Source of the DNA: Sphingomonas sp. HF-S4
GTDB taxonomy: Bacteria; Pseudomonadota; Alphaproteobacteria; Sphingomonadales; Sphingomonadaceae
DNA length: 64,000 bases
NCBI RefSeq assembly: GCF_032911445.1
Contig: NZ_JAWJEJ010000001.1
Span: forward strand, 2,294,001 to 2,358,000
Direction: 5' to 3'
A program made the translations under genes and the position numbers. Within the stretch, counting starts at the first letter, position 1; every line of letters starts with the position of its first letter. Below, piece after piece: positions 15,467 through 59,144 of this stretch. The notes beneath the pieces are model-generated. The model worked only from the letters and a program-made list of their open reading frames with translations, searched no databases and was not told the origin of the DNA.

Positions 15467-15472
15467 ATTCTA
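15467..15472 (-). promoter_or_regulatory. -10-like element of flaF (flagellar C-TATAAT family)
   Basis: Read on the - strand: GGCAAAATCTTCC followed directly by TAGAAT, 24 nt before the flaF ATG. The GGCA half-site sits exactly 13 nt upstream of the hexamer, as in the flgC promoter. Confidence 0.5.
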
Positions 15473-15505
15473 GGAAGATTTTGCCGACCTGGTCTCCGCT
15501 CTTCC

Positions 15506-15511
15506 TATAAG
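15506..15511 (+). promoter_or_regulatory. -10-like element of the HAD gene
   Basis: CTTCC followed by TATAAG, 46 nt before the TTG start. It is the same sequence as on the - strand before the fliN-like gene (CTTCCTATAAG), which suggests the HAD gene belongs to the flagellar regulon. Confidence 0.55.
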
Positions 15512-15556
15512 AAATTGTGCGTCACTCGATGCGGGCGCATTTCCAGGGAAACTGCA

Positions 15557-17968
15557 TTGACCGACACGATCCTTCCGCACGCGCTTGCTGGCGCCCTGAA
15601 CGGGCGCGACGGCATCAAGCTGCTCTCGCTCGACTGTTTCGACACGCTGTTGTGGCGCGATACGCACGCGCCCAAGGACCTGTTCGGCGCGCTGCCCGGC
15701 ACCACGGTCACCCAGCGCCAATGGGCCGAGGAGCGTGCGCGCCTCGCTGCCGACCTGCGCGAGAAGCGCGGCGAAGTCACCATCGAGGAAATCTACCGCG
15801 AGCTGCTCCCCAACGGGCCCGACGCGCGCGCGGGCGCGATCCAGAACGAGATCGACGCCGAAGCCGCGCACTGCTTCGCCTTCCGCCCGACCGTCGAGCT
15901 GATGCGCGCCGCCAAGGCGCGCGGCCTCCAGGTCATCATCGTCTCGGACACCTATCTCAACCCCGACCAGCTGCGCGGCCTGATCGCCGCCGCCGCGGGC
16001 GCGGATGTCGCCGGACTGATCGACCGTGTGTTCTGCTCGGCCACCTATGGCAAGGCGAAGAGCGAGGGCCTGTACAAGTTCGTCCTCAAGGAACTCGCGG
16101 TCCAGCCGCACGAAATCCTCCATATCGGCGACAACAAGCGCGCCGATTGCGGCGGCGTCGCGCCCTTCGGCGTCCAGACGCTCCACCTCAAGCAGTTCAC
16201 CGAGAGCACCGAGCAGCGCCTGCGGCTCGAAGCGGCGGTGGGCACGATGCTGCATCCCGCCGCCACCGAGATCGCCCTCACCCACCAGCCGCATCGCGCT
16301 GCGCTGTCGATGGAAGAGCCGGTGATTGCCGACAAGGCCGAGGCATTCGGCTTCACCACGCTCGGCCCTGTGCTCCACGGCTTCGACCGCTGGCTCGCCG
16401 ACGAGGCCGAGGCGCTCGCGGCGAAGCATAATGGCAAGGTCCATCACGTCTTCCTGATGCGCGACGGCTATCTGCCGCAGCGCATGTATCAGGCGCGCAG
16501 CGGCCAGGCCGGCCATGCGCTCGAGATCAGCCGCTTCACCGCGACCGCCTCGACCTTCGTCGATGAGGAAGCGATCCGTCGCTATCTGGAGATCGAACTC
16601 GAGACCGATCCCGCCGTCGTCGCCAAGCAGATGCTGCTGCCCAAGGACGAAATCGCCACGGTCCTCGCCAAGCTGCCGCGCGCCGATACCGACACGCGCG
16701 CCCGCGCCTTCGCCACTGCTATGACCACGCCGTCGCGGATGCGCCGTATCGTCAAGGCGTCGACTGCGTTCGCCGAGCGGCTGGTCGCGCATGTCCGCCG
16801 CACGGTCGATCCGCAGCCGGGCGACACGCTGATGCTCGTCGATCTTGGCTATAACGGATCGGTCCAGAACGAGATCGAGGCGATGCTCGTCCGCAGCTTC
16901 GGCGTGCAGGTCGCCGGCCGCTACCTGCTGCTGCGCGAGCAGTTCCGCGCCGGCTACGACAAGAAGGGCTTCATCGGCCACGACGCGTATGACGGCTATA
17001 CGCTGGAAGCACTCTGCACCAATGTCGCCGTGCTCGAGCAGCTTTGCACCGCCGCGCAGGGTTCGGTGGTCGATTACGCTGCCGACGGCGCGTCGATCCG
17101 CAAGGGCAACAGCATCAAGTCGCGCCAGTCCGAGGTCCGCGAGCGGATCCAGGCCGGCGCGATCCGCTTCGCCCGCGTGGCCGCCGACGTCACGCTGCGC
17201 AACGTCTCGGCCAACGAGGCCGCGATGTGGCGCCGCGGCGCCGCGGCGGGGATGGGCCGGCTGATGTACATGCCGGTCGCGGAGGAACTCGCCGTGCTCG
17301 GCCAGTTCGAGCACGACGTGAACCTCGGCGTCGACAATACCGTCGCGCTGTTCGACAGCGAGATCGCCCGGAAGGGGCTGCGCCAGCGCGGCCTGTTCTA
17401 CATGAAGGGCGCCGACCGCATGTACTTGCCGGCCGAGTTGCAGGGCGAGGGCCTCGCGCTCAAGCTCAGCCTGCTCGCGCACAAGCGCTTCGGGCTGTCG
17501 CTCAAATACGCCGATTTCATCGACCAGACGATCTCGCTGCCGCTGATCGTCGCCGACGGCCGTGAGGTCTCGACCGGCAACGTCACCGCGACGCCGACGC
17601 ATGACGGCTATTACATCGCGCCGATCCCGGTGGGCGACTGCCGCTTCTCGGTCGGGGTCCAGTTCGGCCAGTTGTTCGATTACGTCCAGGTCGAGAGCGC
17701 CACCTTCATGCCCGTCGATCGCTTCCTCAGCGACAAGGGCCTGCAGGGCGACAAGGAGATCGAAGCCACGCCCTCGCTCGAGGGCATGGAGCAGGCCGCG
17801 CCGCACCTGTTCAAATGCGCCGACGAATTCAGCTTCATGATGGTCCCCCCGCCACCGCGCCAGGGCGACCGCCAGATGATGCTCGCCGTCGTCTTCCGTC
17901 CGATCGCCCGGCGCGAGGCCAAGCCCGCCGCCGCCAACGCCCTTCTCGCTACCGGAGCTTCCGCATGA
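15557..17968 (+). CDS. Large HAD-family protein, flagellar-regulon candidate
   Basis: 803 aa. TTG 15557 is chosen for AGGGA upstream and a sensible N-terminus. The first 220 residues are a HAD hydrolase: motif I in LLSLDCFDTLLW, motif II in IVSDTYLN, the Lys in GKAKSEGLY and motif IV in HIGDNKRADCGG. The remaining 580 residues are globular without membrane segments; they include MLVDLGYNGSVQNEIEAML and a beta-rich C-terminus. Proteins of this layout occur beside polysaccharide and glycan genes, so a part in flagellin glycosylation is plausible but inferred. Its stop overlaps the methyltransferase start (ATGA). Confidence 0.8.
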   Translation: MTDTILPHALAGALNGRDGIKLLSLDCFDTLLWRDTHAPKDLFGALPGTTVTQRQWAEERARLAADLREKRGEVTIEEIYRELLPNGPDARAGAIQNEIDAEAAHCFAFRPTVELMRAAKARGLQVIIVSDTYLNPDQLRGLIAAAAGADVAGLIDRVFCSATYGKAKSEGLYKFVLKELAVQPHEILHIGDNKRADCGGVAPFGVQTLHLKQFTESTEQRLRLEAAVGTMLHPAATEIALTHQPHRAALSMEEPVIADKAEAFGFTTLGPVLHGFDRWLADEAEALAAKHNGKVHHVFLMRDGYLPQRMYQARSGQAGHALEISRFTATASTFVDEEAIRRYLEIELETDPAVVAKQMLLPKDEIATVLAKLPRADTDTRARAFATAMTTPSRMRRIVKASTAFAERLVAHVRRTVDPQPGDTLMLVDLGYNGSVQNEIEAMLVRSFGVQVAGRYLLLREQFRAGYDKKGFIGHDAYDGYTLEALCTNVAVLEQLCTAAQGSVVDYAADGASIRKGNSIKSRQSEVRERIQAGAIRFARVAADVTLRNVSANEAAMWRRGAAAGMGRLMYMPVAEELAVLGQFEHDVNLGVDNTVALFDSEIARKGLRQRGLFYMKGADRMYLPAELQGEGLALKLSLLAHKRFGLSLKYADFIDQTISLPLIVADGREVSTGNVTATPTHDGYYIAPIPVGDCRFSVGVQFGQLFDYVQVESATFMPVDRFLSDKGLQGDKEIEATPSLEGMEQAAPHLFKCADEFSFMMVPPPPRQGDRQMMLAVVFRPIARREAKPAAANALLATGASA

Positions 17969-18777
17969 GCCTGCTGATCCACTCGATGTCCGAGTTCTCC
18001 GACATCATCCTCGGCTGCATGCACGCCGCCGACGCATCGAACCTCGTCGAGGTCGGCGCCGAATTCGGCGGCATGTCGCAGCAGCTTGCGGCCTATGCCC
18101 AGCTCAAGCAGGGGCATCTGACCAGCATCGATCCCACGCCGCAGCCCGAGTTCATCGCCTGGGCCGACGGTTGCAAATCGGCTACGCATATCGCCTTGCC
18201 GAGCCTCGAGGCGATGCCGACGCTCGCCAACGTCGATGCGTGGGTGATCGACGGCGATCACAATTACTACACCGTCTCGAACGAGCTGCGCATCGCCGAC
18301 GAACTGGCGCAGCGCGACGGCCGTCCGCTGCTGGCGTTTCTGCACGACGTGAGCTGGCCGACCGCCCGCCGCGACATGTATTACGCCCCCGAGCGGATTC
18401 CGGCCGAATGGCGGCATCCGCACAGCTTCGAAGGCGGCGCCTTTCTTGGCCAGTCCGAGCTGCGTCCGCATCGCGGCTTCCGCGGCATGGGGAATTTCGC
18501 CTTCGCTACTCACGAGGGTGGCCCCCGCAATGGCGTGCTGACCGCGGTAGAGGACTTTCTCGATGCTGCACGCACGCCGGACCGGGCGCTGGCCTTCGCG
18601 CACGTTCCCGCAGTTTTCGGGCTCGGCATCGTGTTCGATTCCTCGGCGCCCTGGGCCGCCGATGTCGCGCAGATTGTCCACCCCTATCACGACAATGCAT
18701 TGATGGCGTCGCTCGAGCTCAACCGCCTGCGCAACTACCTTGCAGTCATCGACTGGCAGGATCGCCAGGCCGCCTGA
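17965..18777 (+). CDS. Class I SAM-dependent methyltransferase
   Basis: 270 aa. A Rossmann start with NLVEVGAEFGGMSQQLA (glycine-rich SAM loop), then LTSIDPTP (acidic residue after strand 2) and WVIDGDHNYYTVSNEL, a pattern seen in Methyltransf_24/CmcI-type small-molecule or sugar methyltransferases. There is no signal peptide. It is translationally coupled to the HAD gene and lies just before motA. A role in modifying a flagellar glycan is an inference from position only. Confidence 0.78.
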   Translation: MSLLIHSMSEFSDIILGCMHAADASNLVEVGAEFGGMSQQLAAYAQLKQGHLTSIDPTPQPEFIAWADGCKSATHIALPSLEAMPTLANVDAWVIDGDHNYYTVSNELRIADELAQRDGRPLLAFLHDVSWPTARRDMYYAPERIPAEWRHPHSFEGGAFLGQSELRPHRGFRGMGNFAFATHEGGPRNGVLTAVEDFLDAARTPDRALAFAHVPAVFGLGIVFDSSAPWAADVAQIVHPYHDNALMASLELNRLRNYLAVIDWQDRQAA

Positions 18778-18820
18778 GCAAAAACGGGCCGAGCCGAACC
18801 CTCGACCCGTCATTCCATCC

Positions 18821-18826
18821 TATAAT
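18821..18826 (+). promoter_or_regulatory. -10-like element of the motA-che-motB operon
   Basis: CATCC followed by TATAAT, 34 nt before the motA ATG. No recognisable -35 TTGACA at the usual distance. Confidence 0.6.
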
Positions 18827-18860
18827 TCTGGAAACACCAGAGAAAGAATAGTGGTCCGCC

Positions 18861-19745
18861 ATGCTGAACGGCGTTGGTTTCATCGTCATCCTGGGATGCG
18901 TCTTCGGCAGCTTCGTCATGGCTGGCGGCAAGATGGACATAATCCTGCACGCGCTGCCGCACGAGCTGATGGCGATCCTCGGCGCGTCGATCGGCGCGTT
19001 CATCGTGTCCAATTCCATGTCGACCGTAAAGAAGGCCGGCAAGGGGCTGATGCGTTCTTTCAAGGGCGGCAAGTGGAAGTCGCAGGACTATAAGGACCTG
19101 CTCACCCTGATGTTCGGCGTGCTGTCGACCTTCAAGAAGGGCGGCGCCACCGCGCTCGAGCCGCATCTCGACAATCCCGAGGAGAGCTCGCTCTTCTCGC
19201 CCTATCCGCGGCTGCTCAAGGATCACCACCTGATCGAATTCACCTGCGATTACCTGCGCATGATGACGGTCAATTTCGAGGATCCGCACCAGCTCGACGC
19301 GGCGATGGACGCGGACATCGAGAAGCATCACCACGAAGAGGCGCATCCGCAGCACGCGCTGCAGATCATGGCCGACGGTCTTCCCGCCATCGGCATCGTC
19401 GCCGCCGTGCTCGGCGTCATCAAGACGATGGGCTCGATCGATCAGCCGACCGAGATCCTCGGCGCGATGATCGGCGGCGCGCTCGTCGGGACCTTCATGG
19501 GCGTTCTTCTGAGCTACTGCGTGGTGGGTCCGCTCGCCTCCAAGCTGCTCGAGACGATCGAGGAGGACAGCAAGCCCTTCTTCATCGTGAAGACCGCGAT
19601 CGTCGCTTACGCCCAGAACCAGCCGGTTCAGGTCGCAATCGAGATCGCGCGCCGCATGACGCCGTCGGCCCACGCACCGACTTTCCAGCAACTAGAAACT
19701 GCACTCGACGAGGCGAAAAATGGACTCAACCCTGCAACTGCCTGA
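18861..19745 (+). CDS. motA: Flagellar motor stator protein MotA
   Basis: 294 aa, usual length. Four membrane segments: residues 5-22, 32-48, about 170-195 and 205-230. The loop contains YPRLLKDHHLIEFTCDYLRM, and the segment MADGLPAIGIVAAVLGVIKTMG holds the conserved Pro and TM3. With MotB it forms the proton-driven stator. It opens an operon in which motB lies 6.5 kb further on. The next gene begins 26 nt before the motA stop. Confidence 0.96.
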   Translation: MLNGVGFIVILGCVFGSFVMAGGKMDIILHALPHELMAILGASIGAFIVSNSMSTVKKAGKGLMRSFKGGKWKSQDYKDLLTLMFGVLSTFKKGGATALEPHLDNPEESSLFSPYPRLLKDHHLIEFTCDYLRMMTVNFEDPHQLDAAMDADIEKHHHEEAHPQHALQIMADGLPAIGIVAAVLGVIKTMGSIDQPTEILGAMIGGALVGTFMGVLLSYCVVGPLASKLLETIEEDSKPFFIVKTAIVAYAQNQPVQVAIEIARRMTPSAHAPTFQQLETALDEAKNGLNPATA

Positions 19746-30256: not shown

Positions 30257-30262
30257 CTTATA
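30257..30262 (-). promoter_or_regulatory. -10-like element of the fliN-like-fliO-fliP unit
   Basis: On the - strand CTTCC is followed by TATAAG, 24 nt before the start. The 13-nt palindrome at 30295-30307 lies 32 nt upstream. Confidence 0.6.
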
Positions 30263-30294
30263 GGAAGGCTTTGCGCGGCCCCGGCCCAAGACCC

Positions 30295-30307
30295 GGCAAA
30301 AATTGCC
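30295..30307. promoter_or_regulatory. FlbD/ftr-like palindrome 1
   Basis: GGCAAAAATTGCC, a perfect GGCA-N5-TGCC palindrome between the divergent fliN-like and flgC units. It resembles the Caulobacter ftr sites bound by FlbD, which is encoded at 46.6 kb. Confidence 0.6.
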
Positions 30308-30342: not shown

Positions 30343-30361
30343 GGCAAATATTGCCTATTAT
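30343..30361 (+). promoter_or_regulatory. FlbD/ftr-like palindrome 2 abutting the flgC -10 element
   Basis: GGCAAATATTGCC (30343-30355) is followed without a gap by TATTAT (30356-30361), 42 nt before the flgC ATG. Confidence 0.6.
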
Positions 30362-30403: not shown

Positions 30404-30811
30404 ATGGATTTGAAGGCATCGCTCGGCGTCTCTGCTTCGGGGCTTCGCGCCCAGTCGCTGCGGATGCGCGTGATCGCGGAGAACCTGGCCAACCAGGACT
30501 CGGTCGCGCAGACCCCGGGCGGCGATCCCTATCGGCGTCGCGTCGCGAGCTTCAAGGCGCAGGTCGATCGCTCGACCGGCGCCACCGAAGTCAAGGTCCA
30601 GTCGATCCAGACCGACAAGTCGGACTTCACCCGCGTCTACCAGCCCGGCCATCCGGCCGCGGACGGCGAAGGCTATGTGCTCAAGCCCAATGTCAACAGC
30701 CTCGTCGAGAGCGCCGACATGAAGGCCGCACAGCGCAGCTACGAAGCCAATCTCAATGCCATCGAGGCCGCCAAGAGCCTGACGATGCGCACCATCGACC
30801 TTCTCAAGTAA
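30404..30811 (+). CDS. flgC: Flagellar rod protein FlgC
   Basis: 135 aa, usual size. N-terminal SASGLRAQSLRMRVIAENLANQDS and C-terminal NVNSLVESADMKAAQRSYEANLNAIEAAKSL are diagnostic for the proximal rod protein FlgC. flgB, normally its upstream neighbour, lies 9 kb away at 39.4 kb. First gene of flgC-fliE-fliQ-fliR-flhB. Confidence 0.95.
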   Translation: MDLKASLGVSASGLRAQSLRMRVIAENLANQDSVAQTPGGDPYRRRVASFKAQVDRSTGATEVKVQSIQTDKSDFTRVYQPGHPAADGEGYVLKPNVNSLVESADMKAAQRSYEANLNAIEAAKSLTMRTIDLLK

Positions 30812-33294: not shown

Positions 33295-35568
<2,274 letters not shown>

Positions 35569-35619: not shown

Positions 35620-36042
35620 TTACGCCTGCACGTCCACCTTCGCGAGCTCGACGCGGACGCGCAGCTCGATCTCGTCGAGGATCGACTGGAGCACCGGATC
35701 GTCCGAAGCCTCGAAATTCTCGGACCACTCGACGATTTCGTGCAGCCGCTCGACGCTCGGCGTGCCCGCCGCCAGTTCCTTCTTGAGCCGTTCGAGCGCA
35801 TCGAGTCCCTTCTCGGCCTGCACTGCCATCTTCCGCCGCCGCTCGATCATGGGATCGGCGGCAGCGAGCGTCACCAGCATTGCGACACTGGGCACCGGCT
35901 GGTTGGCAGTCGAGCCCTGCACCGGCGTCTGCATGACCCGTGCCGCGGCCTGTTCCTCGGCCACCGGGAAACTCGGCGCGGCCTTGGGCAGCGCAGCCAG
36001 CAGGCTGCGTGCCATCAGCGGCGTCAAATTGTCGATGCGCAC
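35620..36042 (-). CDS. fliX: Flagellar assembly regulator FliX
   Basis: 140 aa, the usual size. GTG start. The C-terminal half DPMIERRRKMAVQAEKGLDALERLKKELAAG and VLQSILDEIELRVRVELAKVDVQA fits FliX, which in Caulobacter binds FlbD and couples its activity to basal-body assembly. A FlbD homologue is encoded at 46.6 kb, which supports the call. It diverges from flgI across an 83-nt gap. Confidence 0.85.
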   Translation of the reverse strand: MRIDNLTPLMARSLLAALPKAAPSFPVAEEQAAARVMQTPVQGSTANQPVPSVAMLVTLAAADPMIERRRKMAVQAEKGLDALERLKKELAAGTPSVERLHEIVEWSENFEASDDPVLQSILDEIELRVRVELAKVDVQA

Positions 36043-36082
36043 GAAATCAGGTCCTCGCGGCCCGTGTTGGGCTTAACTCCTC

Positions 36083-36088
36083 TATAAG
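36083..36088 (+). promoter_or_regulatory. -10-like element of flgI
   Basis: ACTCCTC followed by TATAAG, 37 nt before the flgI ATG. No GGCA palindrome nearby. Confidence 0.55.
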
Positions 36089-36125: not shown

Positions 36126-37229
36126 ATGCAGCGCATCGTCGCCTGGTTCCTGCTTTCGCTTCTGGCACTTGGGGCCAGTACGCACGCTTCCGCGCAGACG
36201 CGGATCAAGGACATCGTCGATGTCGAGAACGTCCGCGAGAACCAGCTCGTCGGCTACGGCCTCGTCGTCGGCCTCGCCGGCACCGGTGATCGCATGCGCA
36301 ACGCGCCCTTCACCGAAGAATCGATGCAGGCGATGCTCGAGCGGATGGGGGTCAATATTCGCGGGACCAACATGCGCACGCAGAATGTCGCGGCGGTCTC
36401 GATCACTGCGACGATGCCGCCCTTCTCGCGCTCGGGTTCGCGGATCGACGTGCAGGTCGCAGCACTCGGCGACGCGTCCAGCCTTCAGGGCGGCACGCTG
36501 ATCGCCTCGTCGCTGCGCGCGCTCGATGGCGAGATCTACGCGGTCGCACAGGGCAATGTCGCCGTGTCCGGCTTCAAGGGCCAGGGCGCTGCCGCCAGCG
36601 TCAGCCGCGGCGTGACCACCTCCGCGCGCATCGCCGGTGGCGCGATCGTCGAGCGCGAAGTCCCCTATTCGCTCACCTCGGCGACGAGCCTGAAGCTCGC
36701 GCTCAAGAACCCCGATTTCGCCACTGCCGACCGCATCGCCGGCGCGATCAACGACAAATATCCGGGCAGCGCGACCGTGCTGGATCCCGGCACGGTGCAA
36801 GTCCAGCCCGCCGCCAATTTCGTCGGCAACGTGATCGACCTCGTCACCCGCATCGGCGACCTATCGATCAAGGTCGATCAGCCGGCGCGCGTCGTAATCA
36901 ACGAAGCCTCGGGCACCGTCGTGATGAACGCCGACGTCAAGATCACCCCGGTTGCCATCGCCCAGGGCGGGCTGACCATCACCGTCACCGAGCGTCCGCA
37001 GGTCTCGCAGCCCGCCCCGCTCTCGAACGGCCAGACCACCGTGGTGCCGCGCACCGACGTCCAAGTCGACGATGGCAACGGCGCCCATCTCGCGATGGTC
37101 AGCGGCGCCTCGCTCCAGTCGCTGGTCAGCGGCCTCAACACCCTCGGGGTGAGCCCGCGCGATCTGATCACCATCCTTCAGGCCGTGAAGAGCGCCGGCG
37201 CGCTCCAGGCCGAGATCGAGGTCCAGTAA
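36126..37229 (+). CDS. flgI: Flagellar P-ring protein FlgI
   Basis: 367 aa. Signal peptide (FLLSLLALGASTHASAQ), then RIKDIVDVENVRENQLVGYGLVVGLAGTGD, the FlgI hallmark, and a conserved C-terminus LVSGLNTLGVSPRDLITILQAVKSAGALQAEIEV (in pieces). Periplasmic P-ring bushing around the rod. ATG 36126 was chosen because it begins the signal peptide. Its stop overlaps the flgJ start by 1 nt. Confidence 0.96.
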   Translation: MQRIVAWFLLSLLALGASTHASAQTRIKDIVDVENVRENQLVGYGLVVGLAGTGDRMRNAPFTEESMQAMLERMGVNIRGTNMRTQNVAAVSITATMPPFSRSGSRIDVQVAALGDASSLQGGTLIASSLRALDGEIYAVAQGNVAVSGFKGQGAAASVSRGVTTSARIAGGAIVEREVPYSLTSATSLKLALKNPDFATADRIAGAINDKYPGSATVLDPGTVQVQPAANFVGNVIDLVTRIGDLSIKVDQPARVVINEASGTVVMNADVKITPVAIAQGGLTITVTERPQVSQPAPLSNGQTTVVPRTDVQVDDGNGAHLAMVSGASLQSLVSGLNTLGVSPRDLITILQAVKSAGALQAEIEVQ

Positions 37230-42598: not shown

Positions 42599-42625
42599 CG
42601 CAACCGCACCTCTTCCCCATGCTCC

Positions 42626-42633
42626 TATAATAG
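42626..42633. promoter_or_regulatory. Bidirectional -10-like element between the FlaEY-like gene and fliG
   Basis: CTCCTATAATAGAGG: TATAAT reads toward fliG (59 nt before its ATG) and CTCTATTATAGG reads toward the FlaEY-like gene (28 nt). The same symmetrical arrangement recurs between flgF and fliL. Confidence 0.55.
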
Positions 42634-42689: not shown

Positions 42690-43724
42690 ATGAGCTTGAT
42701 GGCGCCGATTGCCGAGCCGCCCGAACTGAAGCGCTACAGCGGGCCGCAGCGTGCGGCTGCGCTGATGCTCGCGCTCGGCCGCGATCATGGCGCGCCCATC
42801 TGGGAACAGCTTACCACCGAAGAGATCAAGGAACTGTCCTCGACGATCGCCGGGCTGGGCCGCATCCCCTCGGCCGTGGTCGAGCATCTGCTCGTCCAGT
42901 TCACCGGCGAGATCGCCAGCATGGCGTCGATGCACGGCAGCTACGAGACCACCGAGCGGCTGCTCGCCGGCATCCTCCCGAACGAGAAGGTTCGGGAGAT
43001 CATGGAAGACATTCGTGGTCCCTCGGGTCGCACCATGTGGGACAAGCTCTCCAACGTCAGCGAGTCCGTCCTCGCCGGCGCGCTCAAGCACGAATATCCG
43101 CAGACCGTCGCGGTCATCCTGTCGAAGCTGCGCCCCGATCACGCCGCGCGCGTGATCGCCGAGCTGCCGCGCGATTTCTCGGTCGACGTCGTCATGCGCA
43201 TGCTGCGGATGGAAACCGTCCAGAAGGACGTGATCAACCAGGTCGAGCAGACGCTCAAGAGCGAGTTCATGACCAACCTCTCGCGTTCGCAGAAGCGCGA
43301 CCCGCACGAGGCGATGGCCGAGCTGTTCAACTCGCTCGACCGCTCGACCGAGGAAGCGATGCTCAACGCGCTCGACAACAGCGCCCCCGAGAGCGCCGAG
43401 CGCATCCGCGCGCTGATGTTCACGTTCGAGGACCTGATGAACCTGCTGCCGGCGGCGATCGCGGTCATCGTCCGCAACGCCGACAAGCGCGAGATGGCGC
43501 TGGCGCTGAAGGGCGCGCCGGACCAGCTCAAGCAGATGTTCTTCGGCGCGATGACCGAGCGCGCGGCCAAGCTGATGCGCGAGGACATGGCGGCGATGGG
43601 CCCGGTGCGCGCGCGCGATTGCGAAGAGGCACAGTCCTCGCTCGTCCGCCTCGCCAAGGGCCTGGCCGACCGCGGCGAAATCCTGCTGGTCGATCCCAAG
43701 TCCGACGACGCGATGATCATCTGA
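42690..43724 (+). CDS. fliG: Flagellar motor switch protein FliG
   Basis: 344 aa, usual length. N-terminal domain with YSGPQRAAALMLALGRDHG; middle domain with HEYPQTVAVILSKLRPDHAARVIAELP (EHPQ-type motif here EYPQ); C-terminal domain with FEDLMNLLPAAIAVIVRNADKREMALALKGAP. The torque helix has charged residues in this stretch. It joins the MS ring to the C-ring and contacts MotA. fliH follows after 1 nt. Confidence 0.96.
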   Translation: MSLMAPIAEPPELKRYSGPQRAAALMLALGRDHGAPIWEQLTTEEIKELSSTIAGLGRIPSAVVEHLLVQFTGEIASMASMHGSYETTERLLAGILPNEKVREIMEDIRGPSGRTMWDKLSNVSESVLAGALKHEYPQTVAVILSKLRPDHAARVIAELPRDFSVDVVMRMLRMETVQKDVINQVEQTLKSEFMTNLSRSQKRDPHEAMAELFNSLDRSTEEAMLNALDNSAPESAERIRALMFTFEDLMNLLPAAIAVIVRNADKREMALALKGAPDQLKQMFFGAMTERAAKLMREDMAAMGPVRARDCEEAQSSLVRLAKGLADRGEILLVDPKSDDAMII

Positions 43725-44505: not shown

Positions 44506-44552
44506 CATGTCCGCCCCCTCCGCAAACGCCACTAGGCAAAAAATTCCCACCC

Positions 44553-44585
44553 GGCACAATCTGCCGCCCGCCACCCCTCTATAAT
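44553..44585 (+). promoter_or_regulatory. FlbD-like palindrome and -10-like element of fliF
   Basis: GGCACAATCTGCC (44553-44565) lies 14 nt before TATAAT (44580-44585, preceded by CCCTC). A partial site GGCAAAAAATT lies at 44535. The fliF start is 47 nt further on. In Caulobacter FlbD represses its own fliF operon from a site near the start. Confidence 0.55.
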
Positions 44586-44632: not shown

Positions 44633-46258
44633 TTGGAAGCGATCAAGAAATTTGCCGGGCAGCTTGGCCCGAAGCGGCTGATGCTGATGGGCGGCGTGGC
44701 GTTCGCGCTGCTCGCCGCGCTCGCCTTCGTCGCCACGCGCGGTTCCGATCCGCAGATGGGCTATCTCTACACCGATCTCGATCCGTCCGCCGCGGCGACG
44801 ATCACCGAGAAGCTCAAGGCGCAGAATGTCGAGTTCCAGCTCTCGGCCGACGGCACCTCGGTGCTGGCGCCGCAGGACAAGCTGGCGGAACTCCGCATGT
44901 CGATGGCCGGCGAGAAGCTCGGCGGCAAGATCGGCTACGAAGTGCTCGACGAGGAGCAGCCCTTCGGCGTCTCCTCCAGCCGCGCCAAGATGAACGAGAC
45001 CCGCGCCGTCGAGGGCGAGCTCTCCAAGTCGATCCAGACGATCCAGAACGTGTCGGCCGCGCGCGTCCACATCGTCATGCCCGAACGCGCGATGTTCGCC
45101 GCCGAGAGCCGCAAGGCGACCGCCGCGGTCACCGTCAAGACCAAGGGACGCCTGTCGTCCGAGCAGATCGCGTCGATCCGCTACCTCGTCTCCTCCTCGG
45201 TTCCCGAGCTCTCGCCCGAAGCCGTCTCGGTCGTCGACCAGACCGGCGCGTTGCTGGCCCGTGCCGGCGAAGCGGGTGCGGCTGGCGGCGCCGATGCCGA
45301 CGAGCGCCAAGCCGCCGTCGAAGCCAAGCTCCGCGAGGAGATCGAGGCGTTGCTCGCCCCGATCGTCGGCCAGGGCAAGGTCCGCGCCGAAGTCTCCGCG
45401 CAGATCGACCGCGACCAGACCCGCGAGGAAGCCAATGTCTTCGATCCCGACAAGCAGGTGATCTCGCGCCAGGTCAGCGTCGAGAATGGCGAGCAGAACA
45501 GCGAGCAGGATGCCGGCGCGCAGACCGCGACCGTCGCCAACCAGCTCCCCGACGCTGCCGCTCCCGGCGCAGGCACCCCCGGCACCGGCCGCCAGTCGCG
45601 TAGCAACCAGACGTCGGAAGACACCACCTACGACAACAGCTCGACCAAGACGGTCACGCTGCGCGGCCCCGGCAAGGTCACGCGCCTCACCGTCGCGGTG
45701 ATGGTCGACGGCGGCGAGAAGGGCCTACCCCAGCCGCAGATGCAGCGCATCCAGCGCCTCGTCGAGAATGCGGTGGGCATGGATGCCGAGCGTGGCGACA
45801 GCGTCGTCGTCGAGAGCATGCGCTTCGCCAATGACGACAGCCTCGCCGACAAGGACACCGGCCTTCTCTCCAGCCTGCCGATGGACCGGATCTGGGGCCT
45901 GCTGCAGATCATCATCATCGGCGTGGTCGGCCTGATCGCGCTCAAGATGCTCAAGCCCAAGATCATGCCGCAGACCGAAGTCGCCGCACTCGCCGGGCCG
46001 GCCGGCGAGATCCCGCTCTCCGCCCAGTCGCCCGAGATGCTCGCGCTCGCCGAGCGCGCCGCCGACGGCGACGCCGAAGCGCTGCAGCAGCTCGAAGCGA
46101 TGGGCAGTGCCGAACAGCCGCTGCTCGATCAGGAGATCGCGCTCGCCCAGGTCGACGGCCGCATCAAGCTCTCCGCCCTCAAGCGCATCGGCGATGCGAT
46201 CCACGGGAGCCCGCCCGAGGCGGCCTCGGTGATCCGCGCCTGGATGAACGCAGCCTAA
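44633..46258 (+). CDS. fliF: Flagellar MS-ring protein FliF
   Basis: 541 aa. TTG start behind GGGGCGG. First membrane helix (residues 17-36), periplasmic ring-building domains with DLDPSAAATITEKLKAQNVEFQL and RVHIVMPERAMFA, an unstructured loop (about 285-340), a second membrane helix (about 420-440, IWGLLQIIIIGVVGLIALKML) and the C-terminal FliG-binding tail ending ASVIRAWMNAA. Forms the MS ring in the inner membrane. Opens fliF-fliN-flbD. Confidence 0.96.
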   Translation: MEAIKKFAGQLGPKRLMLMGGVAFALLAALAFVATRGSDPQMGYLYTDLDPSAAATITEKLKAQNVEFQLSADGTSVLAPQDKLAELRMSMAGEKLGGKIGYEVLDEEQPFGVSSSRAKMNETRAVEGELSKSIQTIQNVSAARVHIVMPERAMFAAESRKATAAVTVKTKGRLSSEQIASIRYLVSSSVPELSPEAVSVVDQTGALLARAGEAGAAGGADADERQAAVEAKLREEIEALLAPIVGQGKVRAEVSAQIDRDQTREEANVFDPDKQVISRQVSVENGEQNSEQDAGAQTATVANQLPDAAAPGAGTPGTGRQSRSNQTSEDTTYDNSSTKTVTLRGPGKVTRLTVAVMVDGGEKGLPQPQMQRIQRLVENAVGMDAERGDSVVVESMRFANDDSLADKDTGLLSSLPMDRIWGLLQIIIIGVVGLIALKMLKPKIMPQTEVAALAGPAGEIPLSAQSPEMLALAERAADGDAEALQQLEAMGSAEQPLLDQEIALAQVDGRIKLSALKRIGDAIHGSPPEAASVIRAWMNAA

Positions 46259-46274: not shown

Positions 46275-46625
46275 ATGACTATCGAACCCCATGACATCAT
46301 CCCGGCCGAGACCAATGAGGCGAGCGGCCCCGTGTTCGAGGATTTCGAGCCGTTCCCCGGCACCGAGTCCGCCCCGATGGGCTCGGAAGGGCTCGAGGCG
46401 GTCCACGACGTCCCGGTCAAGGTTCAGGCCGTTCTCGGCCGCGCCCGGATGCCGGTCGGCGAGCTGCTGCACCTGACCTCGGGCACCGTGGTCGAGCTCG
46501 ATCGCCGCGTCGGCGAGCCGGTCGATATCTTCGTCAACGATCGCCTGATCGCCCGCGGCGAAGTCGTGCTGATCGACAACGCGCTCGGCGTGACGCTCAC
46601 CGAAATCATCCGTCAGGACCGTTGA
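46275..46625 (+). CDS. fliN: Flagellar motor switch protein FliN
   Basis: 116 aa. Acidic N-terminal extension (about 40 residues), then the SpoA domain: VHDVPVKVQAVLGRARMPVGELLHLTSGTVVELDRRVGEPVDIFVNDRLIARGEVVLIDNALGVTLTEII, here read in pieces. Forms the bottom of the C-ring. It is the canonical copy; a shorter FliN-type protein is encoded at 29996. TGATG overlap with flbD. Confidence 0.95.
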   Translation: MTIEPHDIIPAETNEASGPVFEDFEPFPGTESAPMGSEGLEAVHDVPVKVQAVLGRARMPVGELLHLTSGTVVELDRRVGEPVDIFVNDRLIARGEVVLIDNALGVTLTEIIRQDR

Positions 46626-47959
46626 TGCCCGATACTGTCCGCATGATCCTGGTCGGCGCGCCCGGCGGCGAGTTCCGCCGCGCCGCCGAGCTCGCCCGCG
46701 ATGCCGGCGCCGATGTCGCGATGGCCGATGCGCCCGCCCAGGCGCTCGACCTGCTCCGCGAAGGCGGCGGCGACATGGTGATGGTCGATGTCGAGGCCGA
46801 CATTGCCGGCTTCATCGTCAGCCTGCGCGCCGAGCGCTTCACCATCCCCGTGCTCGCCTGTGGCATCCAGGCCTCGGCCGAGCGCGCCGTCGCCGCGATC
46901 CGTGCCGGCGCCAAGGATTATGTCCCCCTGCCCCCGCAGCGCGAGCTGATCGCTGCGGCGATCGCCTCGGTGATCGAGCGCAAGGCGACTGTCCGCATCG
47001 GCGACCATCCGGTGCTCGCCCGCGCGATGTCGCTTGCCACCGCGGTGGCGCCCACCGCCGCGCCCGTGCTCGTCACCGGCGAGAAGGGCACCGGCAAGGA
47101 AGTCATGGCCCGCGTGATCCACGAGGCGTCGGGCCGCGCCAATCCGCTCCATGTCGTCGAATGTGCCGGCGTCGCCGCCGACGTGCTCGAATCGGAGCTG
47201 TTCGGCCATGAGGCCGGCGCGTTCCCGGGCGCCGTCGCGCGCCGCATCGGCCGGCTCGAAAAGGCGGCCGGCGGCACGATCTTCCTGCGCGAAGTCGGCG
47301 CCCTCGCCCCCGCCACCCAGGCCCGGCTGTTCGCCGCGCTCCAGGAGCAGTGCTTCCAGCGCCTCGGCGGCGACGAGATCGTGCCGTTCCAGGCGCGGCT
47401 GATCGCCTCGACCAGCATGGACCTCGACGGCGCCGTCGCCGCTGGCGCCTTCCGCGCCGACCTGCTCGTCCGCCTGGGCCTGGTCCGCGTCGAAGTGCCG
47501 CCGCTCCGCGCGCGCGGCGCCGACATCGCCCAGCTCGCCCAGCATTTCGCCGCGCAGTTCGCGATCGGCGAAGGCGTCGCGGTGCGCCCGTTCAGCGACG
47601 CCGCTTTGGTGCTGCTCTCGCGCTATTCGTGGCCGGGCAACATCCGAGAGCTCGAGGACTTCATCCACCGCGCCGTCCTGCTCGGCCAGGACGCGGCGAT
47701 CGAGCCGCACGACCTCGTCCGCTCGGACGGCACCCGCCTGCTCGATCTCGAGCTGTCGGAGCCGGGCAGCCTGCAGATCGAGAGCCTGGTCGGCCGCACC
47801 GTCGAGGAAGTCGAGCGCGAGCTGATCCTCCACACGCTGGAGCGCTGCCATGGCAACCGCACGTCGGCGTCGAGCATCCTCGGCATCTCGGTCCGCACGA
47901 TGCGCAACAAGCTGCGCACCTTCATCGAGGCGGGCATCGCGGTCGCTCCGGCGCCGTAA
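46625..47959 (+). CDS. flbD: FlbD-type flagellar regulator with degenerate AAA+ motifs
   Basis: 444 aa. Receiver-like N-terminus (1-120, D55 at the acceptor place but no canonical acidic pocket), AAA+ domain (about 125-355) and a Fis-type HTH (about 395-435). Walker A GEKGTGKE (152-159), arginine fingers (FRADLLVRL) and WPGNIRELE are kept. However GAFTGA reads GAFPGA (198-203), Walker B reads FLREVG with Arg instead of the catalytic Asp (R222), and sensor I reads STSMDL. These changes would be expected to weaken ATPase and sigma-54 contact. Position after fliF-fliN and the presence of fliX support FlbD. Confidence 0.88.
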   Translation: MPDTVRMILVGAPGGEFRRAAELARDAGADVAMADAPAQALDLLREGGGDMVMVDVEADIAGFIVSLRAERFTIPVLACGIQASAERAVAAIRAGAKDYVPLPPQRELIAAAIASVIERKATVRIGDHPVLARAMSLATAVAPTAAPVLVTGEKGTGKEVMARVIHEASGRANPLHVVECAGVAADVLESELFGHEAGAFPGAVARRIGRLEKAAGGTIFLREVGALAPATQARLFAALQEQCFQRLGGDEIVPFQARLIASTSMDLDGAVAAGAFRADLLVRLGLVRVEVPPLRARGADIAQLAQHFAAQFAIGEGVAVRPFSDAALVLLSRYSWPGNIRELEDFIHRAVLLGQDAAIEPHDLVRSDGTRLLDLELSEPGSLQIESLVGRTVEEVERELILHTLERCHGNRTSASSILGISVRTMRNKLRTFIEAGIAVAPAP

Positions 47960-50111: not shown

Positions 50112-50135
50112 AACCCGTTCGTTCCGTAACTCTCC

Positions 50136-50141
50136 TATAAT
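50136..50141 (+). promoter_or_regulatory. -10-like element of fliK-flgD
   Basis: CTCTCC followed by TATAAT, 40 nt before the fliK ATG. No GGCA palindrome is visible upstream. Confidence 0.55.
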
Positions 50142-50181: not shown

Positions 50182-51663
50182 ATGCAGATCAACCCCTTCG
50201 GCTTTCCGCTAGGCGCGGGCACCCAGCCTGCGTCGGCTCTCGCGGCCGGCGGCCTCGGCTTCATCGATGCGCTCGGCGTCGCGATCGACGGCAGCGCGCC
50301 GGCGATCACCGGCCTGACCGGATCGACCACGATGCCCGCGCATTTCGACGCCAAGCTGTCGCAGACCCTGCTCGCCAATGCGCAGCTCGACTCCCAGCCC
50401 ATGCCGGCCACGCCGCCGTTGCCCGGGCTCCAGCAGCCGACCTCTCTGTCGCAGCTGATGGCCACTGCCGCCAAGCTGCCGGCGGCCGAGCCGCCGCCGG
50501 TTGCCGGCCAGGCGCCAGGTGCCGACCTTGCCGCGCCGCTCGCCCAGCCGATGGTTGCGCAGCCCGAAATTACCCAGCCCGAGGACGCGCAGCCCGAAGC
50601 GGCAAAGCCAGAAATGGCGCCGCGCGCGCCGGCCGCAGTCGCGCCCGAGCCCGTGGCAACTCAGCCCGTGGTCGCCCCGCCCGTCCAGGCGCCCGCCAAG
50701 ACCCCGGTCGAGACCGCCGTCGCCGAGGTCGAGGCTCAGCCCGAGACGCCCGCCTTGGAAGCCGGCGCGGCCAAGCCGCAGAAGCGCGTCCGCGCCGCGA
50801 CCGCCGAGGCCGAACCCGCCCAGCCCGAGGCCAAGCCTGCCCCTGCCCCCGCGCCGGTGCCTGCCGCCGCAGTCGTGCCGCAGGCCGTCGCCGCCCAGCC
50901 GCAGCCCGTCGCGCGCGACGCCGCCGCACCGCAGACGCCCGGTACCACGGTCAAGAAGACCGGCGCCGCACCTGCTGCGTTCGAAGGCGCGCCGCAGGCC
51001 GCTACCGGCGCCGGCACCACCGACTTCGCCGATGCGGTCGCCGCGCAAGGCGGCAAACCGGGAGCCGACGCCAATGCCGACGGCCAGCCCCAGCCCGAAT
51101 TCGTCCCCGGCACGCTCGGCAAAGCCGACGCCCCCGCACCGGTAGCCGCACCTGCCGCGCACCACAGCGCGTCGGTCGACGCCACGCGCGCCGCCGCCCC
51201 GGCGGCACCCGCACCCGCGCCGCATGCCGAGCATGTCATCGACGCGCATCGCCATCTCGGCCAGTCGCTCGGCGTCGAGATCGCCAAGAAGGTCGAGCTC
51301 GGCGAGGAAACGCTGCGCATCCGCCTCAATCCGATCGAGCTCGGCCGGATCGAAGTGACGCTCGCCTTCGACGACAAGGGCGCGCTCCAGGCCACCGTCC
51401 GCACCGACAGCGCGCAGGCGATGGACCTGCTGCGCCAGGATGCCGGCGATCTCGCCCGCACGCTCGACCAGGCCGGCGTCCGCACCGACGCGCAGAGCTT
51501 CCGCTTCGAAAATCGCGGCGGCAGCGACGGCAACGGCCAGCAGGCCCAGCACCAACATTCGCAGAACCGCGGCCCGTTCGCCGCTTCCGATGACGACGCC
51601 CTCGTCGCCGAACCCATCTACCGCCCGGTCCGCAGCGACGGGCAGGTCGACCTTCTCGCCTGA
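50182..51663 (+). CDS. fliK: Flagellar hook-length control protein FliK
   Basis: 493 aa. A long Ala/Pro-rich disordered region (about 70-350) and a compact C-terminal domain (about 355-445) with GVEIAKKVELGEETLRIRLNPIELGRIEVTLAF and QAMDLLRQDAGDLARTL, the FliK/Flg_hook domain. A Gln/His tail (GNGQQAQHQHSQNRG) follows. It measures hook length and triggers the FlhB switch. ATG 50182 is the first good start after the promoter. flgD follows after 9 nt. Confidence 0.92.
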   Translation: MQINPFGFPLGAGTQPASALAAGGLGFIDALGVAIDGSAPAITGLTGSTTMPAHFDAKLSQTLLANAQLDSQPMPATPPLPGLQQPTSLSQLMATAAKLPAAEPPPVAGQAPGADLAAPLAQPMVAQPEITQPEDAQPEAAKPEMAPRAPAAVAPEPVATQPVVAPPVQAPAKTPVETAVAEVEAQPETPALEAGAAKPQKRVRAATAEAEPAQPEAKPAPAPAPVPAAAVVPQAVAAQPQPVARDAAAPQTPGTTVKKTGAAPAAFEGAPQAATGAGTTDFADAVAAQGGKPGADANADGQPQPEFVPGTLGKADAPAPVAAPAAHHSASVDATRAAAPAAPAPAPHAEHVIDAHRHLGQSLGVEIAKKVELGEETLRIRLNPIELGRIEVTLAFDDKGALQATVRTDSAQAMDLLRQDAGDLARTLDQAGVRTDAQSFRFENRGGSDGNGQQAQHQHSQNRGPFAASDDDALVAEPIYRPVRSDGQVDLLA

Positions 51664-52387: not shown

Positions 52388-52576
52388 GGCTGGCCGATGG
52401 CTTGCCCGCTCGCCTGGAGCTCGTCGGAGGACGGCCATACACCGCGTATGGCTCGCGGAGAGCCGGCCTTCGACACGCTCAGGCCGAACGGTGTCGATCT
52501 CTATAAAATCTTATAAGTACAAACCCTTAGCGGCAATTTTTCCGCCCTCGGAGCCGCCCCCGGCACCCGCGCTTGC

Positions 52577-52582
52577 TATAAT
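52577..52582 (+). promoter_or_regulatory. -10-like element of an orphan transcript
   Basis: CTTGC followed by TATAAT in a gene-free gap, with a partial GGCA site (GGCAATTTTT) at 52532 and GGCACCC at 52561. CTATAAA and TTATAAG also occur at 52501-52517. Confidence 0.5.
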
Positions 52583-52587: not shown

Positions 52588-52717
52588 CAGAGAGACGGGT
52601 GGGCGTTCCGATCCCCTCTACGACCCATTCGTCTCTTCCCCTTTTTCGACCGCTTCCCTCGCGATCGCAAACGACAAGGGCCAGGCTGGCTTCCACCAGT
52701 CTGGCCCTTGTTTGTTG
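52588..52717 (+). ncRNA. Candidate flagellar-regulon small RNA
   Basis: A flagellar-type -10 (52577-52582) and a strong terminator (52675-52717) bound about 130 nt that contain no convincing open reading frame on +. The only frame (from 52599) runs through the terminator into the antisense of the next gene. The first part is pyrimidine-rich (CGTCTCTTCCCC, CCTTTTTCGACC), which could pair with purine-rich ribosome binding sites. Expression is not proven. The gap 52388-52576 otherwise holds a fragment of an intergenic repeat (around 52470) and no gene. Confidence 0.45.
52675..52717 (+). terminator. Terminator ending the candidate small RNA
   Basis: 15-bp stem (52675-52689 with 52696-52710, one G-T pair), 6-nt loop, then TTTGTTG. 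The stem could also serve the convergent - strand gene that ends at 52759. Confidence 0.8.
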
Positions 52718-52758
52718 CGCCCCCGCGCAAAGCTCGAGAAAAGGAAAGCGTGTGCCGC

Positions 52759-53198: not shown

Positions 53199-53600
53199 TC
53201 AATGGACGCGCGCCTCGGCGCGGCGCGCCAGTTCGCGGGCATGCGCGGTGACCAGGCACAATTCGGCATAGAGCCGGTCCCAGAACGGCGCGGGAATCTC
53301 GAGCCTGGCGTCGCCGCCCTGGCTGAGCTCGATCGCGGCGCACGGCTCGATCGCCAGCACGAAGCGCGTACGGAACATGCCGTCGACATGCTCGTCGGGC
53401 AGCCCGTGCGACACCGCGAGGCGCGCCGACATGATGTATCCGGCCAGCACGTCGGTCCCGTAGCCGTCGAGCAGGATGCGCGGTCGTCCGCTCACGTCCG
53501 GCCGCTCGAGCACGACGAGCGCGCCCGAGGGATGCTCCTCGACGCTCACGCGCAGCTTGCCGCCAAAGGCGTCGGTGATCTCTCGGATACGTGGGAACAA
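53199..53600 (-). CDS. Unknown protein with a flagellar-type promoter
   Basis: 133 aa; TTG start at 53600 with AAGGAG upstream. PRIREITDAFGGKLRVSVEEHPSGALVVLERP and PRILLDGYGTDVLAGYIMSARLAVSHGLPDEH (in pieces); no signal peptide or membrane segment. A CTATAAT element precedes it, so it is likely made with the flagellum. Lies directly downstream of flagellin on the same strand but behind the flagellin terminator. No family recognised. Confidence 0.72.
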   Translation of the reverse strand: MFPRIREITDAFGGKLRVSVEEHPSGALVVLERPDVSGRPRILLDGYGTDVLAGYIMSARLAVSHGLPDEHVDGMFRTRFVLAIEPCAAIELSQGGDARLEIPAPFWDRLYAELCLVTAHARELARRAEARVH

Positions 53601-53620: not shown

Positions 53621-53626
53621 ATTATA
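53621..53626 (-). promoter_or_regulatory. -10-like element of the 133-aa unknown gene
   Basis: On the - strand CCATC is followed by TATAAT, 20 nt before the TTG start. Confidence 0.55.
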
Positions 53627-53702
53627 GATGGGTCAACCATCGCGACGGCGGAAATGCGTGGATTCATTGCGCCAGGCGCAATCGTCGCGCGCGCGAAACG
53701 CA

Positions 53703-54714: not shown

Positions 54715-54830
54715 CTGCAGGATCATTTTGGGAAGATTTCGGGGAGGACCAAAATTGATCCGCAAATTTAAATGGTTCGCAATCGGTTAACCGGGAGCCA
54801 GGTGTGGCGGCGGTGCGAGCGGCATCTTGT

Positions 54831-56069: not shown

Positions 56070-56082
56070 GCGTCCAGCACAG

Positions 56083-56225: not shown

Positions 56226-56290
56226 CCACAGCAAAGGGCCCGCCCGATATCTCGGACGGGCCCCCTCCCCCTACCCCCAAGCCGCTCCCA

Positions 56291-57049: not shown

Positions 57050-57108
57050 GTTAATACTCCCCTGATGCGCCGGCGGGGCAAGCCGCCCGGGCGCGAGTAA
57101 GACGATGG

Positions 57109-58325: not shown

Positions 58326-58344
58326 TTAGTCTATCCTTTCTAAA

Positions 58345-59085
58345 TCAGCCGACGCGGCCGAGCCGGTCGATCGCCTTCTTGCGAAGGTCGGACATGCTTT
58401 CGTTGAGGTTCATGCTGGTCTGGTAGGCCCGCAGGATCTCGACCATGTCGGTGGTCTCGGTGATCGCGTTGACGTTCGATCCCTCGACCCCGCCGGTCTT
58501 GAGGCTGGTCTCGGCGGCGGTGAGCTCGCGCCCGCCGGTGCCGTTGAACATCCCGTCGCCGCGCGGATCCATGTTCTTTTCGTCGAACACGGTAACGGCG
58601 ATCCGGCCGAGCGGGCCATCGACGCCCATCACGCTGCCATCCGGAGAAATGCTTAGGCGCCCGGCGCTCTCGGGCGGCACCGTGATCGGCTGGCCGCCCT
58701 CGCCCAGGATCTTCTGGCCGCCCGCCGTGACGAGCTCGCCGCTTTGCGCGATCTTGATATAACCGGCGCGCGTATACGCGGTGCCGCCGCCCGGCGCCTC
58801 GACGCTCAGATAGCCCGGCCCCTCGATCATCACGTCGAGCGGGTTCTCGGTGACCTGGAAGCCGCCCGACGAAGCGTCGTGCACCGCGCCGTAATCGAGC
58901 ACGAACGACGTCTTCTTCGCGTCGGGCGTGACCGTCGTCTCGCCCTGCTTTACGAACTCGCGGAACACCGGCGCCTCGCGCTTGAAGCCTACCGTATTCA
59001 TGTTGGCGAGGTTGTTCGCCGCAACATCGAGCCGGCGCCGCAGCGCCTGTTCCTGGCTCAGCAATACATAAGACGAGACGTCCAA
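58345..59085 (-). CDS. flgF: Proximal rod protein FlgF
   Basis: 246 aa from TTG 59085 (AAGGA upstream); this gives MDVSSYVLLSQEQALRRRLDVAANNLANMNTVGFKRE, the usual FlgF N-terminus, while longer starts add unrelated residues. The C-terminus is VEGSNVNAITETTDMVEILRAYQTSMNL. First gene of flgF-G-A-H, divergent from fliL. Confidence 0.94.
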   Translation of the reverse strand: MDVSSYVLLSQEQALRRRLDVAANNLANMNTVGFKREAPVFREFVKQGETTVTPDAKKTSFVLDYGAVHDASSGGFQVTENPLDVMIEGPGYLSVEAPGGGTAYTRAGYIKIAQSGELVTAGGQKILGEGGQPITVPPESAGRLSISPDGSVMGVDGPLGRIAVTVFDEKNMDPRGDGMFNGTGGRELTAAETSLKTGGVEGSNVNAITETTDMVEILRAYQTSMNLNESMSDLRKKAIDRLGRVG

Positions 59086-59113
59086 GGGACCATCCTTCAG
59101 AAATTTGTCGCTA

Positions 59114-59144
59114 GGCAGAAATTGCCGGGTGACCATCCTATAAT
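59114..59144. promoter_or_regulatory. FlbD-like palindrome and -10-like element between flgF and fliL
   Basis: GGCAGAAATTGCC (59114-59126), then 12 nt to TATAAT (59139-59144) toward fliL. The hexamer is part of CCTATAATAGAGG, whose complement CCTCTATTATAGG could serve flgF. Confidence 0.6.

Follow-up and report, generated by a model that had tools for sequence, protein, structure and literature searches.

What transcribes the flagellar genes of Sphingomonas sp. HF-S4? The stretch analysed here, 64 kb of the 4.44 Mb genome (G000:C1:2294001-2358000; hereafter, the window), covers the larger part of a gene cluster for flagella and chemotaxis. A first-pass annotation had noticed a shared element, C-TATAAT, in front of its flagellar genes, and had proposed that it is read perhaps by sigma-70 with an activator or by an alternative sigma factor. 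There is now comparative evidence for both halves of that proposal: the flagellar regulator FlbD has decayed, and a divergent sigma-70-family factor occurs in 19 of 19 genomes with such a FlbD versus 0 of 21 others, from which we infer the contacts with DNA. We consider it probable, at roughly 0.7, that this sigma factor, helped by the decayed FlbD, transcribes the flagellar regulon from C-TATAAT as its -10 element.

A recurrent element before flagellar genes

CTATAAK (K, T or G) occurs 12 times in the window, versus a mean of 0.67 and a maximum of 3 in 100 shuffles; the genome as a whole holds 192 in 4,438,540 bases, or ~2.8 expected per 64 kb. The window was also scanned with a weight matrix trained without this genome, using 20 shuffled windows as the null. 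The eleven highest-scoring places (18.1-38.5, with a best shuffled-window score of 17.3) are all sites listed by the first-pass annotation, lying before, in descending order, fliL, fliF, fliG, motA, flgI, a 133-aa gene, a fliN-like gene, a HAD gene, a FlaEY-like gene, an orphan site and fliK. The shuffle counts and the matrix null rule out chance as the source, and the element is real. Two further listed sites, variants before flgC (30356, 13.0) and flaF (CTAGAAT at 15472 (-), 12.5), fall within the null range. A C directly precedes 8/8 exact TATAAT in the window and 4/8 TATAAG. The annotation's claim that nearly every flagellar unit carries the element was somewhat too strong, with exact CTATAAK upstream of 9 of the 18 window flagellar gene starts that have an upstream gap, compared with 0 of 15 other window genes (gene starts throughout are calls of a simple custom gene finder). 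The occurrence at 19088 falls inside the motA gene and does not look like a promoter (context score -17.4). A promoter for flgF, suggested as possible, found no support and was dropped, since the candidate at 59145 (-) is only 9 bp away from the called start codon and that at 59285 (-) lies within fliL and has a negative context score.

The surroundings of the element were examined in 19 regions from genomes with degenerate FlbD (defined below), which hold 197 CTATAAK versus 14.5 expected (84 versus 61.9 in 14 regions with intact FlbD); 146 lie outside called genes and 124 of them within 350 bp of a start. These 124 sites were selected on CTATAAK, so the core letters and the C hold by construction, while the positions left free show a preference for T-Y ahead of the C and for R behind the core. 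An A/T block spans -41 to -35, counted from the first T, ~38 bp upstream and thus at ~-50 from the expected start, and A is favoured 7-8 nt past the hexamer (57% and 53%), where the start site is expected. No strong -35 column was seen among the 124 sites, only a weak CC at -21/-20. The hallmarks of housekeeping sigma-70 promoters, a conserved -35 and a TGn extended -10, are therefore missing, with T-Y-C preceding TATAAK instead, in agreement with the annotation's description of the window.

When the seven core letters were omitted from scoring, 10 of the 12 window CTATAAK still scored above 0. Among the first 30 in the genome (loci along C1, 8 to 574 kb), only those at flbT (22.5) and at the sigma gene (4.5) did so. 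CTATAAK alone was accordingly rejected as a marker, with 28 of these 30 sites lacking the context and the flagellar two alone scoring above 0; for this part of the genome, that answers the annotation's contrary case of equal motif frequency before housekeeping genes. Because the training rows held the same genes in relatives, the scored gene's own label was removed in a leave-one-gene-out control, in which the 10 intergenic sites of this genome scored 2.2-16.3, flbT 19.0 and the sigma gene 5.7, with -0.3 the best of the 28 others; orthology alone was thus rejected as the source of the high scores. Recurrence at orthologous genes in relatives, and a context absent from the 28 other CTATAAK scored, support a dedicated flagellar promoter class.

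FlbD decay, the fliK promoter and a divergent sigma factor

The enhancer-binding protein of the window (flbD, 46625..47959 (+); receiver, AAA+ and Fis-type helix-turn-helix domains) is the FlbD orthologue by its position between fliN and flhA and by its Fis-type helix-turn-helix (HTH). Its best family is NF050807, at 467.7 bits and below the cut-off of 750. It is without the hallmarks of sigma-54 dependence, having GAFPGA for GAFTGA and RE for the Walker B DE, a pair that has a role in sigma-54-dependent enhancer-binding proteins. In an alignment of 41 FlbDs, 22 are intact (GAFTGA or GSFTGA, with DE) and 19 are degenerate, the window's own included: 12 carry GAFPGA, two GDFPGA, three GAFAGA and one GAFAAA, and in one the loop is deleted. 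The Walker B aspartate is replaced by arginine in 19/19, and the degenerate proteins form a single clade with a support of 1.0. Intact FlbDs read in all number 27 (the 22 aligned and five more), with wide flanks compared for 14. Decay goes further in four genomes (G043, G604, G610 and G490), where the FlbD of the flagellar cluster is without its AAA+ domain; in the first three a receiver remnant and the HTH are left, and in G490 a full receiver and the HTH. Because these remnants differ among relatives, the sequences suggest that the AAA+ domain was lost more than once. Matches to the short form in G188, G511 and G048 were rejected as GAFTGA-bearing proteins of another type. Loss of rpoN was rejected as the cause, since rpoN is present in all 31 genomes searched, our own included.

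FlbD decay goes together with a change of promoters. In genomes with degenerate FlbD, CTATAAK precedes 86/232 flagellar starts and 23/267 other starts (p 1.1e-14), some of the latter being unlabelled flagellar genes, and TATAAK with another preceding base stands at 2/232 and 5/267, respectively. With intact FlbD, CTATAAK is found at 0/66 flagellar and 7/296 other starts. The compared genomes are related, so these co-occurrence counts are of non-independent events. Gene by gene, the element is present in degenerate and intact genomes, respectively, before fliG in 13/15 and 0/13, fliF in 12/16 and 0/14, motA in 10/13 and 1/10, and fliK in 11/18 and 0/11; flgI (15/15) and fliL (11/14) have it in degenerate genomes and have no identified orthologue in the intact regions. 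The sigma-54 promoter pattern, -24/-12, was found at 0/232 flagellar starts in degenerate genomes and at 11/66 in intact ones, all 11 being fliK, so that fliK has it in 11/11 intact and 0/18 degenerate genomes. One orthologous promoter, that of fliK, has therefore switched class, and early genes have joined the same class.

The sigma gene (G000:C1:377859-378863, 335 aa) lies downstream of flbT-fliI-fliJ and one further gene, which has no Pfam match (L067:7095-8153), and has its own upstream CTATAAG. By Pfam, sigma region 4 is recognised at 29.9 bits, above the cut-off of 24.1. In a profile comparison with our own RpoD and RpoH, 45 region 2 columns aligned at 59.5% probability. The protein reaches the cut-off of neither the FliA/WhiG family (TIGR02479, 25.0 versus 189.6 bits) nor the RpoH family (TIGR02392, 28.1 versus 323.1 bits). 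In an alignment of 12 relatives, most invariant columns fall in region 2; conservation of that region would suit promoters that have a strict -10 but lack a -35. A sigma match (E up to 1e-6) is present in 19/19 genomes with degenerate FlbD (that in G006 running across one stop codon), 0/14 with intact FlbD and 0/7 without a FlbD match. In a sample of 396 genomes of the order, 51 have a sigma match, all of them in the window's family. FlbD, apparently searched on the same 396 at a threshold of 1e-85, was found in 80, with sigma in 13/13 degenerate and 0/67 other cases (24 of these 67 were read and are intact, 43 are unread). The four genomes in which FlbD has no AAA+ domain are among the other 38 sigma-positive ones. 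In a class sample of 385 genomes (threshold 1e-10), sigma matched in two, our own and G657, of another order. Found by sigma alone, G657 has flbT-fliI-fliJ-sigma, fliX-flgI and fliG, with 7 CTATAAK in 20 kb. The element stands at the same genes as here, and the FlbD of G657 is degenerate (GAFEGA, LRD).

Of 134 named sigma loci, the best 80 were compared; they come from Sphingomonas, Novosphingobium, Sphingobium, Stakelama and others, and include S. echinoides ATCC 14820 and Sphingomonas sp. S2M10. Of these 80, 67 have flagellar neighbours, with 214 CTATAAK in those versus 9 in the other 13, two of which (L276 and L314) begin <200 bases from the sigma match. Neighbours were counted by tblastn, since the gene finder called sigma in only 33 of these 80 short loci. 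The sigma factor's closest relatives by name belong to Sphingomonas sp. DG1-23, S. gei and S. naasensis. Sigma paralogues or relatives without a flagellar neighbour were seen at L262, L263, L279, L283, L285, L286, L288, L292, L295, L304 and L325, as well as at L252 and L253, and the family may serve other regulons. Some sphingomonads that have a sigma homologue also encode a further enhancer-binding protein whose GAFTGA is intact (L248, L249 and L250), which perhaps belongs to a second type of flagellum.

Promoter recognition

At fliF, flbT and the fliN-like gene, the A/T block upstream of the hexamer forms the centre of a GGCAANNNTTGCC palindrome, probably the FlbD site. Counted as GGCAAWWWTTGCC-like with up to three mismatches over 123 sites, where 0.06 would be expected per offset, the palindrome lies at -39/-38 from the hexamer (28 matches), at -22/-21 (9, all fliF), at -27 (3, HAD) and at -19 (9, all fliL, which is 9 of 10 fliL sites). 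The genome contains three exact copies of GGCAAWWWTTGCC: two lie in the gap that separates the fliN-like gene from flgC, and the third is 38 bp upstream of the CTATAAG of flbT. GG and GC are 10 bp apart in sigma-54 promoters; GGCA..TTGC was rejected as such a promoter, with its GG and GC 8 bp apart and no -24/-12 pattern at flagellar starts of degenerate genomes.

C-TATAAT would, then, be the -10 of flagellum-specific promoters, replacing the relatives' sigma-54 promoter at fliK and serving early genes such as fliF and fliG as well. The divergent sigma factor most likely brings RNA polymerase and would read mainly the -10 (TYCTATAAKR), with the weak or missing -35 contact offset by a factor at the A/T block ~50 bp upstream of the expected start. 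FlbD has kept its DNA-binding domain but lost the sigma-54 loop and the aspartate of Walker B; some relatives have lost the AAA+ domain as well. From these losses it would follow that FlbD works without ATP-driven remodelling, presumably as an activator from -50 and perhaps as a repressor where its site overlaps the -35 position (fliF and fliL). The promoter class and its recurrence, the decay of FlbD, the co-occurring sigma factor and the fliK swap are observed, whereas reading of CTATAAK by this sigma factor rather than RpoD, binding of the palindrome by FlbD and the direction of its regulation are what we infer.

Several observations weigh against this reading. Exact CTATAAK is absent in degenerate genomes before flaF (0/9), the FlaEY-like gene (0/18) and flgB (0/16), and is rare before flgF (1/14), flagellin (2/14), flgC (2/11) and the fliN-like gene (2/9). 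It was also not found at flhA (0/17), flbD (0/16) and flgD (0/16); some of these low-count genes are internal to operons, and others perhaps rely on variants. At flgI, motA and fliG the A/T block is present with few palindromes. One genome (G099) has degenerate FlbD and sigma, yet only 3 CTATAAK versus 1.2 expected. The profile identity of the sigma factor is weak, with region 2 at 20.2 bits under its cut-off of 24. CTATAAK stands within 300 bp upstream of sigma in only 21 of the best 80 of 134 named loci. FlbD was not found in 34 of the 51 sigma-positive genomes of the order sample (20 of them also searched with the short form), which mostly have homologues 40-50% identical, and the two loci read from sigma-bearing genomes in which no FlbD was found (L252 and L253) are non-flagellar; the sigma family therefore has other jobs too. 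Near the sigma of G554 and G039, 54-58% identical to ours, CTATAAK is unenriched (1 versus 0.7 and 0 versus 1.0), and G490 has 3 versus 0.7.

Some of these points feed a rival explanation, which takes the elements for the usual -10 boxes of activator-dependent RpoD promoters: polymerase with RpoD would be recruited by decayed FlbD, and the sigma-like protein would serve other genes. TATAAT is the sigma-70 consensus, the ordinary -10, which speaks against a dedicated reader, and the sigma family occurs without FlbD as well. There is also a precedent in GAFTGA-less NtrC, which acts at sigma-70 promoters in Rhodobacter capsulatus and Caulobacter, according to the portion of PMC10274813 consulted. 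We nevertheless hold it unlikely: the sigma factor tracks degenerate FlbD without exception in 40 genomes, its gene adjoins flbT-fliI-fliJ and bears the same element in our own genome, and in degenerate genomes nearly every TATAAK at a flagellar start has the C before it (86 versus 2), whereas intact-FlbD genomes have it at 7 of 25 counted starts.

It is considerably less probable again that the activator at the A/T block is CtrA and not FlbD, acting on half sites of the TTAA type at least in front of early genes like fliG. The CtrA site is TTAA-N7-TTAA, and by eye there are TTAACC-like stretches near the block upstream of fliG and flagellin; in Caulobacter, early flagellar genes are CtrA-driven (PMC3930126, in the part available). 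At fliF and flbT, however, the block is the core of the GGCAA-type palindrome. Hardly credible, finally, is an operator or RNA-level signal of flagellar transcripts in place of a promoter. The window elements lie mostly 26-64 bp upstream of called start codons and could be read as leader elements for that reason, but the hexamer-like shape, the AA 7-8 nt downstream, the constant distance to the A/T block upstream and the exchange for a sigma-54 promoter at fliK all argue for a promoter.

Three known systems come closest. The cluster resembles the FlbD-FliX/sigma-54 system of Caulobacter crescentus in its fliF-fliN-flbD-flhA order and in FliX, FlbT and FlaF, and differs in a FlbD without the sigma-54 loop and Walker B aspartate, in that no -24/-12 pattern was found before flagellar starts of degenerate genomes (0/232) and in the sigma-70-family factor that accompanies it. 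Two palindromes stand upstream of fliF here, and FlbD represses fliF in Caulobacter (PMC3930126 and PMC3096577, as far as available, which also describe FlbD, ftr sites and fliK activation). In its lost sigma-54 contact loop FlbD is like the NtrC of R. capsulatus and Caulobacter, with its role at sigma-70 promoters (accessible part of PMC10274813, where Caulobacter FlbD has GAFTGA); those proteins regulate nitrogen, whereas the flagellar FlbD here decays up to loss of the whole AAA+ domain and a separate sigma factor co-occurs. The flagellar context and the sigma-70 family recall FliA/WhiG (sigma-28), with a weak TIGR02479 match over sigma residues 47-261. The FliA -10, GCCGATAA, resembles YCTATAA; against this likeness stand the score far under the family cut-off, the absence of a TAAA-like -35 among the features seen and the coverage of early basal-body genes.

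We also favour, rather less firmly than recognition by the sigma factor with FlbD's help, a wider history: in a sphingomonad lineage, a sigma-70 family branch that seems not to have been described would have taken over the basal-body regulon from sigma-54, with promoters made in essence of a -10 and an activator site, FlbD decaying stepwise (loop mutated, loop deleted, AAA+ gone) with its DNA-binding domain kept as a partner, and a structured small RNA within the regulon. Judged by title and the opening of the abstract, none of the top 5 to 20 papers of each literature search, from which subscription papers mostly fell outside, dealt with this sigma factor, the promoter class or FlbD decay, and the part of PMC3238334 consulted had nothing on a flagellar sigma. 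FlbD is treated as a sigma-54 activator in what was available of PMC7064773 and, for Sphingomonas sp. WG, of PMC8921679, which calls the cascade unclear and did not find flhC, flhD or fliA in that strain's clusters. The analysis questions this working assumption in Sphingomonas, strain WG's own FlbD lying outside the comparison, and offers a candidate flagellar sigma for a group in which the WG clusters are reported, in the portion of PMC8921679 seen, to be without fliA and flhDC. How a network changes its sigma factor without loss of function is a long-standing question. Related bacteria here keep intact, mutated and domain-deleted FlbD together with both kinds of fliK promoter, which makes it possible to reconstruct and test the steps; if the reading is true, it shows a way in which an entire genetic programme may be rewired.

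Elements of the window and a candidate small RNA

The strongest element is CTATAAT before fliL (59138..59144 (+), score 38.5; gene at 59202), where palindrome GGCAGAAATTGCC (59114..59126 (.)) is centred 19 bp from TATAAT. Next comes fliF (CTATAAT, 44579..44585 (+), score 37.5; gene at 44633), with two upstream palindromes: GGCAAAAAATTCC (44535..44547 (.)), centred 39 bp from TATAAT, and GGCACAATCTGCC (44553..44565 (.)), centred at 21 bp and overlapping the -35 position. The fliG element (CTATAAT, 42625..42631 (+), score 31.6; gene at 42690) overlaps CTATTAT on the other strand (42627..42633 (-), score 21.9), before the FlaEY-like gene (start 42598). CTATAAT precedes motA (18820..18826 (+), score 28.3; gene at 18861) and the 133-aa gene of unknown function at 53199-53600 (53621..53627 (-), score 26.6), and CTATAAG precedes flgI (36082..36088 (+), score 26.6; gene at 36126). 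The fliK element, CTATAAT (50135..50141 (+), score 18.1; gene at 50182), stands where intact-FlbD genomes have a sigma-54 promoter instead.

Between the fliN-like gene and flgC, CTATAAG (30257..30263 (-), score 22.7) faces the fliN-like gene, with the perfect palindrome GGCAAAAATTGCC (30295..30307 (.)) centred 39 bp upstream of TATAAG at 30262 (-); a second perfect copy, GGCAAATATTGCC (30343..30355 (.)), adjoins the flgC variant CTATTAT (30355..30361 (+), score 13.0 and within the null range; gene at 30404). Between flaF and the HAD gene lies palindrome GGAAGATTTTGCC (15473..15485 (.), two mismatches), centred 27 bp from TATAAG. On one side is the flaF variant CTAGAAT (15467..15473 (-); site 15472, with its 12.5 within the null; start 15443, FlaF by Pfam) and on the other CTATAAG (15505..15511 (+), score 21.9; HAD gene at 15557). 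Behind this CTATAAG, 15557-18777 (+) encodes a protein of 803 aa that has a HAD-like part, and also a methyltransferase; the two are possibly involved in flagellin modification. Upstream of flagellin (54730 (-)) stands CCAAAAT at the expected place, scoring 8.7, within the null; G539 and G584 have CTATAAG there.

The orphan CTATAAT (52576..52582 (+), score 18.6) lies downstream of flgD, with palindrome GGCAATTTTTCCG (52532..52544 (.), two mismatches) upstream, centred 39 bp from TATAAT. CTATAAK follows flgD in 10/19 genomes with degenerate FlbD, and no shared sense open reading frame was called downstream of it in those 10. Behind the orphan promoter, 52588..52757 (+) folds at -83.8 kcal/mol (z -7.6) and is a candidate structured small RNA of the flagellar regulon. 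In an alignment of six of the 10 genomes, the first 170 nt are predicted to form two common stem-loops (-20.8 versus -1.3 for shuffled columns, a crude control), a two-stem structure that differs in sequence from the window RNA. An Rfam scan of the orphan RNA gave four matches, none at its gathering score.

FliX, the regulator partner of FlbD, is encoded at 35620..36042 (-) (Pfam FliX, 71.1 bits, cut-off 25), and a katG-like gene of the peroxidase family (33301-35568 (+)) sits between flhB and flgI within the flagellar cluster.

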